Of a stretch of DNA of 39,854 bases, positions 13,571 through 23,560 are shown piece after piece. The translations under genes were made by a program, and so were the position numbers. Below the pieces are notes generated by a model. It did no database searches and was not told the DNA's origin. It was given only the letters and a program-made list of their open reading frames with translations. Origin of the DNA: Embleya hyalina (GTDB lineage Bacteria > Actinomycetota > Actinomycetes > Streptomycetales > Streptomycetaceae); contig NZ_BIFH01000064.1 of NCBI RefSeq assembly GCF_003967355.1, positions 1 to 39,854 on the forward strand. Direction: 5' to 3'. Position 1 is the stretch's first letter. Every line of letters starts with the position of its first letter.

Positions 13571-14779
13571 TCAGGTGGTCGAGGCGTTGTTGGTTCGGTG
13601 GTTGGTTTCGGCATCGGAGTCGGCACCGGCGGCCGAGGCCGACGAGGCGGTGTCGGGGTCCGCCGTCGTGTTCGATTCCGTGGTTCCGGCCGCGGTTTCG
13701 GGCGCGGCCCCAACCGTCGCCGGATCCGGTGACGGCTCGGGAGCGGGGCCGGCGTCGGCCTCCGTGCGTGGCCCCGGGACGGTCGGGTCGGGCTGCGCCC
13801 GCCGGGCACGGAATTCGAGGTACCCGGCCAAGCCGAGCAGTGCCAGGCCGAGGAGCAGCGCGACCAGCGGACCCACGACGCCGAGCAGCCACAGGGCCTG
13901 GGCGCCGTCGGCGGCGGTTTCGGCCAACTCCGCGCGCGAGGCCGGCGTGGTGGTCATCTTGAGTTGCACCACCGGGAAGACCTCGGTCGGGGTGCCGTTC
14001 GCGGTCACGGCGGTCGCGGTGACCGACTGGGTGGATTCGAGGTCCACGGTGGTGCCCGTCTCGCTGTCGACCCAGCCGGTGAGGTCGGTGGTCGCGGTGT
14101 ACGCGAGGGGCGTGGGATCGGCCCCGCCGGTCAGGTCGACGGGCCGATTCGGGAACGCGACGCCGGCCAGGCCCTGCACGGCGGCCTTGGGCATCGCGGG
14201 CGGCAGCGAGCGCAGCGTGTCCGGATCGGCGAGCGGACCGCTCGTGCGGATCGAGAACACGTACGTTTCGCGGCCGGCGCGTTGTTCGGTGCGCATGTAC
14301 GTGGCCGGGACGGTGGTCTGGGTCGGCGAGTCCCAGAACGGATAGTTCTTCTTCTTCGGCTCCAACGGGAAGCCCGCGGTCAGACCCTTGTGCGGATTGG
14401 CGCGGACACCCTTGGGAACGGACCGCTCCAGCAGCGTCCTGCGGTCCACCGCCCAGCGGTTGTCCACATCGGTCAGGGTCTGCTTCTGCGGACCGGACAC
14501 CACGGTCCGGTCGCTCAGCACGATCGTCGAACCGGAGGTGTGCACGGCGTGCACGTGCCGGTCCACCTTCACCGGCAGGTCCCGCACGATGGCTCCGGGG
14601 AGATTGCCCGCCTGCAACGCCCGGGCATCCAACATGGTCATGCCGCCGGCGAAGTGCATCGTGAAGTCGGCGTCGTCGGGCACCTGGTGCACGGCGGGCA
14701 GCACGGCGAACCGGGTCACCGCGCTCGCCGTCACCAGCAATGTGGCGGCGGCACCGAGATACCAGGACGTCTTTCTCAT
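13571..14779 (-). CDS. DUF3068 (PorA-family) membrane-anchored protein
   Basis: 402 aa from ATG 14779, with GGAGG 8 nt upstream. There is an N-terminal membrane anchor (about residues 7-27), then a large extracytoplasmic beta-rich domain with paired internal repeats (TLTDVDNRWAVDRRT and DLTGWVDSETGTTVDLEST are equivalent elements), a second membrane helix near residues 325-350 (LWLLGVVGPLVALLLGLALL) and a disordered acidic Pro/Ala/Asp-rich cytoplasmic tail of about 60 residues. This architecture matches DUF3068 proteins of actinomycetes, annotated as PorA-family; a porin function is not demonstrated for Streptomyces-type members. Monocistronic, leftward. Confidence 0.85.
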   Translation of the reverse strand: MRKTSWYLGAAATLLVTASAVTRFAVLPAVHQVPDDADFTMHFAGGMTMLDARALQAGNLPGAIVRDLPVKVDRHVHAVHTSGSTIVLSDRTVVSGPQKQTLTDVDNRWAVDRRTLLERSVPKGVRANPHKGLTAGFPLEPKKKNYPFWDSPTQTTVPATYMRTEQRAGRETYVFSIRTSGPLADPDTLRSLPPAMPKAAVQGLAGVAFPNRPVDLTGGADPTPLAYTATTDLTGWVDSETGTTVDLESTQSVTATAVTANGTPTEVFPVVQLKMTTTPASRAELAETAADGAQALWLLGVVGPLVALLLGLALLGLAGYLEFRARRAQPDPTVPGPRTEADAGPAPEPSPDPATVGAAPETAAGTTESNTTADPDTASSASAAGADSDAETNHRTNNASTT

Positions 14780-14897
14780 CAGACCAGCCTCCGCAGGTCG
14801 CCGGATGGCCCCGGGAGGGCCGGATGTCCCCCCGTCGCGTCGGCACACGCGACCTGTTGGCCCGTACCTCACCAGGATTCACAACGGATTGCGCCAG

Positions 14898-17679: not shown

Positions 17680-17768
17680 CCATGCTCACCCCCACCGAAC
17701 ACGCCGGCCCGTCCGAGATACCCACATCGGCACCGTGTCGGATGGGTGGGTGCGTCGTTGGTTCGGGT

Positions 17769-18134
17769 GTGGGTCGTCGGGATGGGCTGACGGATGGTCA
17801 GTGGGCGCTGGTGGAGCCCCTGCTGCCGGAACGGGCGCGGCGGCGGGGCGGGCGGTGGCTCGATCGGCGGGCCGTGATCGACGCGGTGGCCTGGAAACAC
17901 GAGCGTCGGTGCGCGTGGTGGGAATTGCCGGACCGGTTCGGGCCGTGGCGGACCGTTTATCACCGGTACACCGTGTGGGGAAACGACGGCACCTGGCGTC
18001 GCATCCTGGCTCGGCTGCAACACTGTCCCGACCCGGACGGCAACCTGGACTGGCTGGTCGAGGTCGACGCGGCGCTCAGCGCCCGGGCGGCCGGGGCGGG
18101 TGTCGAGCGGGGGGACGAGTCGGCGGCGTCGTGA
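17769..18134 (+). pseudogene. Truncated IS5-family transposase (N-terminal part)
   Basis: About 121 aa from GTG 17769 (an in-frame ATG at 17682 is also possible). GLTDGQWALVEPLLPERARR, then VIDAVAWKHERRCAWWELPD and YHRYTVWGNDGTWRRILARL, is the N-terminal domain (DUF4096) of IS5-group transposases, and DWLVEVDAALSARAAGAG corresponds to the strand that carries the first catalytic Asp. The remaining DDE domain (over 130 residues) is absent: the alpha/beta hydrolase begins 70 bp later. I found no terminal inverted repeats. It is therefore a remnant, or half of a two-frame transposase whose second half is lost. Confidence 0.7.
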
Positions 18135-19111: not shown

Positions 19112-19366
19112 TCAGGCCGTGCCGCCCGCGCGCACCTGGTCGACGAACTCGGCCAGGCCACTGGGCGTGACCCGCGCCAGGATCGCCGCCGGCGCGACGG
19201 AGATGCCGTAGCGCTTGCCGAGCACGTCCGCGAACTCGACCGCGAGGATCGCGTCCACGCCCAGTTCGGCGAAGGTGTCGTCGGGGTCGATCCGGGTCAC
19301 GTCGAGGGAGATGAGTCGGGCGGTCTGATCGACGATCTCGTCCAGCAGAGCGGCGTTGACGGGCAT
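19112..19366 (-). CDS. Acyl-carrier-like protein lacking the phosphopantetheine serine
   Basis: 84 aa from ATG 19366, with AAGGAG 7 nt upstream. Length and helices fit a discrete ACP/PCP, and the sequence TFAELGVDAILAVEFAD aligns without gaps to the carrier signature LGxDS(L/I)xxVE. The residue at the attachment site is Ala39 (codon GCG, plus-strand 19250-19252) instead of Ser; a single T-to-G change from TCG would produce this. A normal 4'-phosphopantetheine arm therefore cannot be attached. The rest of the fold (helix 2, and the TPSGLAEFVDQV last helix) is well preserved, so it is probably not simply decayed. It is the downstream neighbour of a PLP decarboxylase on the same strand, 307 bp away. 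Confidence 0.85.
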   Translation of the reverse strand: MPVNAALLDEIVDQTARLISLDVTRIDPDDTFAELGVDAILAVEFADVLGKRYGISVAPAAILARVTPSGLAEFVDQVRAGGTA

Positions 19367-19673
19367 GGCGTGGCTCCTTGGCGGGTCATGGATGCGTCCC
19401 GGGGGGAGAGAGGGGGACGGTACGCGGACACCGGCGGGGCGGCCGATGGCGAGGATGTTCCGGGCCGGCCCGTCGACCGGGCCCCGAGGCGGCCGATCGA
19501 CGGCATCGGCTCCTGTCGTACCGGAGGAAACGCTAGTCGGCGCCCAGGTTCCGGCGGTAGGACACAATCGGTGCGGCGCGGGTGGCGAAGCATGGCGAAT
19601 CGCCGTGCCGACCAGGCCAGCGGCGGTTCGGCCGGGCGCGGCGGGCGGTTTCGCGCGGGTGCCGGGCCGGGGC
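19367..19673. other. 307-bp gap between decarboxylase and carrier-like gene
   Basis: I see no gene on either strand and no strong hairpin. The length allows a separate promoter for the carrier-like gene, but no confident -35/-10 pair is seen. Confidence 0.4.
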
Positions 19674-21107
19674 CTACAGGGGCGGGTTGAGGCCCTCGAA
19701 GAAGGCGAGTAGGACGGCCTTGCGCAGACCTGGCGGCAGATGGTCCAGCAGCGCGTGTACCGGGGCCAGTCGGCCGTCGCTCAACAGGCCGGTATCGACC
19801 ATGAGTTCGGTCAGCGCGTCGGGCGACACCCCGCCGTCGGCGGCGGCGAGCGCGGTGAGCCGGTCGACCGCACGCAACTGCTCGGCGGTGGGCAGCGGTT
19901 CGCGGGTGGCCGCGGTGCGGGCGGCGGTGCGGAGCGCGTGGAGGAGATCCGGGACGTGTGGGCCGTGTGTCGCGGTCATGGTCAGATGGATCGTCGGGGG
20001 CACGTTGGGCTGGGACAGTTGGGGCTGTACGGACCGGCCCAGGCGCTCCAGTTCGTCCAGGAAGGCGAAGAAGTCGACGCCGTTCGTGGTCACCGCGACC
20101 AGACTGGCGGCGGGGGCGCCCAGGATGCGCAGTTCCGGGATCTCTCCGACCCCGTCGACCAGTTCGCGGGTGGCGGCCAGTGTTTCGGTGACCAATTCGC
20201 GGTAGCCGTCCGCCCCGAGGTGGCGCAGCACCGCCCACGCGGCGGCGATCAGGCCGCCCGACTTCGAACTCTGCATGGTCGGATTGACCACCGGATAGCC
20301 GGTCCAGTCGGATCCGACGAAGTACTGGGATCGGCGCAGTGCCGCGGTACGGTACAGCAGGATCGAGCAACCCTTGGGCGTGTAGCCGTACTTGTGCAGG
20401 TCCACCGAGATCGAGTCCACGCCGGGGACGCGGAAGTCCCAGGGCGGGACGGGGTGCCCGAGCTGTTCGGCGAACGGCAGCACCCAGCCGCCGATGCACG
20501 CGTCCACGTGGCAGCGCACGCCGCGCCGGGCGCAGATCGCGGCGATCTCGGGGATGGGGTCGACGACGCCGTGGCCGTAGGACGGCGCCGAGGCGACCAC
20601 CAGGACGGTGTCGTCGTCGATCGCCCGCTCGATCGCGGCGACGTCGGCGGTCATCGCGACGGGGTCGATCTCCACGATGACGGGGTCGAGGCCGAAGTAC
20701 CCGGCCGCCTTGGCCCAGGCCGCGTGTGCCGAGCGGGCGAACACGATGCGCGGGCGCTGTACGTCGGGGCGCGCGTCCCGGGCCGCCTTCGCCGCGAGCA
20801 GGCAGCTCTCGGTGCCGCCGCTGGTCCAGCTCCCGGCGGCGCCCGGCGGGGCGTGCACCTGCTCGCCGACGATCGCGACGACCTCGTGCTCCAGCGTGGC
20901 CACGCTCGGGAAGGAGGTCGGGTACAGGCCGTTCACGTGGAGATACAGCTCGAACGCGCGGACCGCGACGTCCTCGACCGAGGCCGAACCGGAGTCGAAG
21001 GTATTGGCCACCCCGGGCCGCCCACGCCCGGGTTCGTCCCCGGCGTGCAGCGCGGTCAACTCCGCCAACACCTCGGCCGCCGGCCGCCCGTCCGCGAATC
21101 CGCCCAT
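19674..21107 (-). CDS. PLP-dependent decarboxylase/lyase, sphingosine-phosphate-lyase-like
   Basis: 477 aa from ATG 21107, with GGGAGG 5 nt upstream. It is a fold-type I PLP enzyme of the group II decarboxylase family: SGGTES at 97-101 (phosphate-binding loop), His128 stacked on the ring, the HVDAC Asp (D202) and the Schiff-base Lys in SVDLHKYGYTPKG (Lys239). The HKYGYTPKG(S/C) context is that of sphingosine-1-phosphate lyases rather than of glutamate decarboxylases. The C-terminal 90 residues include an extra helical region ending LLAFFEGLNPPL. The substrate is unknown; it could be an amino acid or an amino alcohol phosphate. Divergent HTH-PNPOx gene upstream, carrier-like protein downstream. 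Confidence 0.87.
   Translation of the reverse strand: MGGFADGRPAAEVLAELTALHAGDEPGRGRPGVANTFDSGSASVEDVAVRAFELYLHVNGLYPTSFPSVATLEHEVVAIVGEQVHAPPGAAGSWTSGGTESCLLAAKAARDARPDVQRPRIVFARSAHAAWAKAAGYFGLDPVIVEIDPVAMTADVAAIERAIDDDTVLVVASAPSYGHGVVDPIPEIAAICARRGVRCHVDACIGGWVLPFAEQLGHPVPPWDFRVPGVDSISVDLHKYGYTPKGCSILLYRTAALRRSQYFVGSDWTGYPVVNPTMQSSKSGGLIAAAWAVLRHLGADGYRELVTETLAATRELVDGVGEIPELRILGAPAASLVAVTTNGVDFFAFLDELERLGRSVQPQLSQPNVPPTIHLTMTATHGPHVPDLLHALRTAARTAATREPLPTAEQLRAVDRLTALAAADGGVSPDALTELMVDTGLLSDGRLAPVHALLDHLPPGLRKAVLLAFFEGLNPPL

Positions 21108-22153: not shown

Positions 22154-23560
<1,407 letters not shown>

Follow-up and report, generated by a model that had tools for sequence, protein, structure and literature searches.

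Known carrier proteins and PLP enzymes

Carrier proteins and S1P-lyase-like enzymes are in themselves well known. The carriers are defined by a serine that holds the phosphopantetheine arm, and PPTases need this Ser at the attachment position. Discrete carriers are represented by the solved structure 2mf4, which comes from a hybrid PKS/NRPS system and is presumably the virginiamycin carrier. A carrier gene and a PLP decarboxylase-like gene also occur together in macrolactam pathways, where ACP-linked PLP decarboxylases of the FlvO/VinO type act on carrier-bound amino acids and need the carrier Ser. Another point of comparison is AcpM, which we take to be an ordinary Ser carrier. AcpM is reported in complex with MmpL5 (PMC11633376, PMC12346298), likewise a carrier bound to another protein, in a gene context unrelated to that of the carrier considered here. 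In a further study (PMC12838833) the engineered S36A variant of DltC was crystallised, yet its stimulation of DltA was lost, so that a Ser-to-Ala exchange can deprive a carrier even of its effect on a partner enzyme. Among the matches listed, the titles and abstract openings of open-licence PMC articles contained no description of a natural stand-alone Ser-less carrier or of a carrier-PLP pair.

The locus in Embleya

The analysed DNA, referred to as the window, is a stretch of 39,854 nucleotides from Embleya hyalina (contig NZ_BIFH01000064.1). Its relevant features are the following:

19112..19366, minus strand: Ser-less stand-alone carrier protein, 84 aa, with ATG start and the Ala39 codon at 19250-19252
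19374..19379, minus strand: ribosome-binding site AAGGAG ahead of the carrier ATG, identical in four of four sequences
19367..19673, minus strand: PLP-carrier intergenic region, 307 nt, with blocks conserved in four of four sequences
19674..21107, minus strand: S1P-lyase-like fold-type-I PLP enzyme, 477 aa
21320..22009, plus strand: divergent HTH_31 and PNPOx-like (Pyridox_ox_2) gene (PF13560 and PF12900)
22154..23560, plus strand: pyridine-nucleotide-disulphide oxidoreductase by its Pfam domains, lpd-like; syntenic in all four carrier-bearing genomes

The order of these genes, with the PLP and carrier genes on one strand and the HTH-PNPOx and lpd-like genes divergent from them, is kept in the window, in two further Embleya genomes (G001, G002), and in Embleya sp. 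NBC_00888 (4/4). The convergent neighbour of the carrier in the window and in NBC_00888 is an alpha/beta-hydrolase gene, which had no match among the gene calls of the other two carrier loci. The window contains no other PF00550 match, and among the 20 of its 38 gene calls that were scanned none had a PKS, NRPS, or PPTase domain.

Several further elements accompany the locus. An IS4/5-type DUF4096 fragment of 150 aa is located at 17682-18134, with similar copies (74-88% identity) close to the carrier in the remaining three carrier-bearing genomes, and for the gene of a PorA-like (PF11271) protein at 13571-14872 the same three genomes show matches in the equivalent position. In Embleya sp. NBC_00888 the locus together with the lpd-like gene is carried by NZ_CP108785.1, a 5.73-Mb linear replicon filed as plasmid unnamed1, on which 8 features are annotated.

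The carrier protein and its residue 39

The 84-aa product begins with MPVNAALLDEIVDQ and contains the downstream core LGVDAILAVEF (translation of 19112-19366, minus strand). It matched PF00550 over profile positions 2-67 of 67 with 48.7 bits against a cut-off of 20.8 (8.9e-13), and the attachment-Ser column of the profile fell on Ala39, encoded by GCG at 19250-19252. The frame, the codon, and the domain match thus bear out the original prediction of a carrier signature in which Ala stands in place of Ser. The nearest solved relative by sequence was 2mf4 (1.1e-9), which shares with the Embleya protein the whole PF00550 profile and the LGVD-x-IL-VEF core; in contrast to such discrete carriers, the Ser of LGVDS is Ala in Embleya and the 20 scanned gene calls (of 38) in the window are devoid of synthase domains. 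A single-sequence model placed helices at residues 5-23, 37-53, 59-63, and 68-79 with a mean pLDDT of only 60, and when this low-confidence model was submitted to Foldseek the top 12 matches were carriers or carrier complexes, yet none of the 37 matches reached E ≤ 0.001.

All 125 PF00550 matches in the genome of the window were aligned at the attachment site, where 123 carried Ser, one Ala (the 84-aa carrier), and one Glu. An explanation of Ala39 as ordinary Ser-less background is excluded by this count, since Ser-less domains make up only 2 of 125. The Glu-bearing domain (GGDET, C13:679415-679600) belongs to a 376-aa protein that carries a thioesterase domain at its C-terminus.

Of three other genomes from the genus, two contain a carrier orthologue, with 96% and 76% of positions identical to the window protein over the full alignment; another orthologue is present in Embleya sp. 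NBC_00888 (88.9% identity over 81 residues). All four sequences have intact frames and carry Ala39, with the GCG codon throughout; as this residue is shared by four separate genomes, a sequencing error or a recent mutation is excluded. The comparison of residue 39 among close homologues, proposed with the original prediction, therefore gave Ala in all three orthologues and not the uniform Ser that a recent change would have left. When the four sequences were compared by eye, none of the 16 residues at 3-18 (mostly helix I) varied and LGVDA was unchanged, while 5 of the 16 residues at 37-52 (helix II, with limits taken from the low-confidence model) were variable. The residue next to the attachment site is Thr40 in the three orthologues and Ile40 in the window.

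In the third genome (G003), which is fragmented into 1650 contigs and has 7% contamination, the carrier was not found at E ≤ 1e-8 and no orthologous PLP enzyme was recovered (best match 3.9e-20); its lpd-like gene sits in a different neighbourhood. Of the five Embleya records, four thus contain carrier and PLP orthologue together and one contains neither.

More distant relatives were sought in overlapping genome samples from the family (394), the order (391), and the phylum (396), with 13-14 candidates scored in each genome. The family search gave 22 matches outside the genus at E ≤ 1e-7 with 30-41% identity, and the order search gave one at E ≤ 1e-12 (L196). Inspection by eye, which left out L054 with its short flank, indicated Ser at the site in 21 of the 22 family-search matches and in L196; some of these Ser-bearing relatives adjoin apparent ketosynthase genes, also as judged by eye. 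A wide family of Ser-less carriers accordingly found no support in the family, order, and phylum searches, where the inspected matches outside the genus carry Ser.

Selection on the carrier

Pairwise comparison of the four sequences by the Nei-Gojobori method gave carrier dN/dS values of 0.25-0.38 over six pairs, while those of the neighbours were 0.13-0.21 (PLP enzyme) and 0.10-0.12 (lpd-like), so that the constraint on the carrier is weaker. For the three pairs (of six) put to a Fisher test, the contrast between synonymous and non-synonymous changes was significant (p = 0.0002, 0.0005, and 0.002). Neutral simulations kept the number of nucleotide changes at the observed value. Between the window and G001 20 amino-acid changes were observed against about 28.5 expected, and under three transition biases 0, 2, and 3 of 2000 runs gave so low a count; between the window and NBC_00888 12 were observed against about 21.8 expected (0 of 2000 runs at each transition bias). 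The window-G002 pair, which is the closest, has 6 nucleotide and 3 amino-acid changes, and here neutrality was not rejected, 21% of 2000 runs giving the observed count or fewer.

These substitution patterns show genuine purifying selection on the carrier, although of lower strength than on its neighbours. Since Ala39 is common to all four sequences, parsimony most simply places this selection after the loss of Ser. The claim that the carrier is retained and not decaying is supported by the shared Ala39 (4/4), by the intact frames and ribosome-binding sites, and by purifying selection, and a retained pseudo-carrier, whichever partner it has, is probably what the locus encodes.

The PLP enzyme

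The sphingosine-phosphate-lyase-like nature of the PLP enzyme, also suggested originally, was confirmed both by sequence and by predicted fold: its best solved sequence relative is the S1P lyase StSPL (3mad, 7.4e-82), and the model (pLDDT 89.8) had the same protein as best Foldseek match (8e-42). The accompanying term "decarboxylase" has to be taken as a family label only, because the enzyme stands closest to S1P lyase and, with 193.7 bits, does not reach the 299.4 bits demanded by the MfnA decarboxylase model (TIGR03812, NCBIfam).

The residues K239, D202, C204, H128, H238, G98, and T99, which represent the PLP Lys, the Asp, the Cys/His sandwich, and the phosphate cup, were found in 48 of 48 aligned sequences, and N59 and K245 were also invariant in this alignment; the catalytic Lys, Asp, Cys, and His and the phosphate cup are thereby common to StSPL and the Embleya enzyme. 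At three other positions, close to the putative substrate-phosphate pocket, the Embleya and Labedaea enzymes have N35, F37, and Y62, against Y35, Y37, and D62 in 43 of 43 other aligned relatives, and in a tree of the 48 sequences they form one clade with support 1.0. In StSPL the substrate-phosphate pocket comprises Y105, H129, A103, N126, and K317, according to Table 3 of PMC6148460. StSPL His129 aligns directly with Tyr62 of the Embleya enzyme (chain index minus one, set by Lys311), while Tyr105 probably corresponds to Phe37 and A103 to the N35 region, a mapping made visually, as an insertion interrupts the alignment at this point. Of the pocket residues N59 and K245 are kept, so that the Embleya enzyme has only part of the set. 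The same table gives Gln at the His129 place in BsS1PL (PMC6148460), so that a change of the pocket does not exclude lyase activity. Judged from the aligned residues, the enzyme has retained its PLP machinery and is altered at its substrate end.

The PLP family outside Embleya

Genome contigs were scanned with a 13-sequence alignment of the PLP family, and the best 80 of 581 relatives (595 stretches) were examined; identity to the window enzyme was 43-51% in 79 of these loci and 68% in Labedaea. A stand-alone carrier near the PLP gene was found in none of the 80 loci outside Embleya, either by tblastn (none under E 0.01) or with a carrier HMM, the sequence downstream of the PLP match being under 1 kb in six of them (L075, L087, L089, L092, L122, L141). 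The HMM had been built with six wrong-strand rows (L002-L007) and still recovered every Embleya carrier given; its scan also took in 10 further PLP homologues with flanks of at most 1.5 kb, and outside Embleya it gave one carrier-type domain, within a 940-aa frame of L145. The original linkage of the carrier to the PLP and HTH-PNPOx genes consequently holds within Embleya (4/4) and does not extend to the PLP loci outside the genus (0/80). As the carrier is missing from all 80 loci, that of the Labedaea enzyme included, the PLP enzyme does not generally need a carrier.

The usual neighbour in these best 80 of 581 loci is different. A gene matching an MFS transporter lies upstream on the same strand in 66 of the 80, nearly all actinobacterial: 64 matches are directly adjacent and about full length, that of L071 is a short piece, and that of L110 is about 1.3 kb away. 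The 14 loci without a match include L136, which has only 966 bases upstream. Two transporters that were checked (L018, L067) are of MFS_2/GPH type, being over the Pfam MFS_2 cut-off and under that of NCBIfam GPH. The MFS_2 family also includes vertebrate lysolipid/S1P carriers, which makes a lipid-related lyase-transporter pair possible. Although their enzyme is homologous to that of the actinobacterial pair, Embleya and Labedaea lack the transporter: in the window the PLP gene is flanked by the carrier and the HTH-PNPOx gene, and in Labedaea rhizosphaerae, the closest outsider among the best 80 of 581, neither transporter nor carrier is present and a MarR-type gene precedes the PLP gene.

Possible function of the Ser-less carrier

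A carrier without Ser cannot hold the phosphopantetheine arm, so that any role maintained by selection has to rest on contact with other proteins. The first candidate for such contact is the PLP enzyme, because both genes are jointly present or absent in five Embleya records and adjacent in four. Our preferred, still tentative, interpretation is a retained pseudo-carrier that would work non-covalently by docking on this neighbour. By parsimony, the exchange of the attachment Ser for Ala would predate the divergence of the four Embleya lineages sampled, and selection would then have kept the Ser-less protein, which, not being open to phosphopantetheinylation, would act by non-covalent contact and may tune or target the PLP enzyme. 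Conservation in the four sequences, viewed on the low-confidence model, suggests a contact surface around helix I and loop 1 instead of the usual helix II. The partnership is possible on the evidence of gene linkage, and synteny within one genus can be inertia, the lpd-like and truncated IS5-type genes being linked too.

A partner other than the PLP enzyme, such as a synthase, transporter, or regulator encoded elsewhere, is a serious although doubtful alternative, in which the pseudo-carrier would have its own promoter in the gap and the PLP gene would be a mere neighbour. The gap of 250-318 nt across the four sequences, with conserved non-coding blocks in each, suggests separate control of the carrier and PLP genes. 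One block, GATTCGCCATGCTTCGCCACC at 19581-19601, is conserved in 4/4 and repeats TTCGCCA about one helical turn apart. A 21-base block of the gap, GATTCGCCA-N-GCTTCGCCACC, has a single exact copy in the genome. A role of the block as repeated operator was unsupported, the genome having one exact and three 3-mismatch copies. Together with the gap and its blocks, the carrier-less PLP homologues elsewhere point to a lineage-specific and possibly unrelated role of the carrier, and the 124 other PF00550 matches of the genome offer many possible partners. The joint presence in four Embleya records and joint absence in one argue against an unrelated partner, as does the lack of a promoter-like match in the gap, where neither a sigma-70-like promoter nor a terminator was matched in a scan with the sigma-70 consensus only, which says little in an actinomycete.

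It is rather unlikely that the protein is a relic, a discrete carrier left over from a biosynthetic cluster that is gone or inactive, which has parted with its Ser and is slowly decaying. The weaker constraint compared with the neighbours, the window-G002 pair in which none was demonstrated, the window without other PF00550 matches or (in 20 of 38 gene calls) PKS, NRPS, and PPTase domains, and the Ser-bearing distant relatives beside apparent ketosynthase genes (by eye) would all suit such an origin. However, by parsimony all sampled divergence postdates the loss of Ser, yet the frames, the ribosome-binding site, and the sequence have been kept; for the sequence, the two wider comparisons show more conservation than neutrality predicts.

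The kept attachment-site motif (apart from Ser) and loop 1 would also allow a decoy, in which the unmodifiable apo-carrier occupies a PPTase or a carrier-using enzyme and lowers its activity; this is highly improbable, given that no PPTase domain was seen in the 20 scanned of 38 window gene calls and that engineered DltC S36A no longer stimulated DltA (PMC12838833). Cargo carried via another residue, for example the Thr40 of the three orthologues, is scarcely credible with Ile40 in the window copy and PPTases that need Ser at the attachment position.

Significance for Embleya and the carrier family

Returning to the retained pseudo-carrier, its fullest form would be that in Embleya an unmodifiable carrier was recruited to a pocket-shifted PLP enzyme as a non-covalently bound subunit with a regulatory or targeting role, where it replaces the usual transporter neighbour; taken as a whole this is speculative and on balance unlikely. 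The idea is directly testable, since a single enzyme faces a single candidate partner and related genomes either have or lack the two, and the Embleya pair would be a good starting point for finding a carrier-type subunit among PLP enzymes. A Ser-less carrier kept by selection across several species would, if true, provide a natural test of the carrier fold as a pure protein-contact module.
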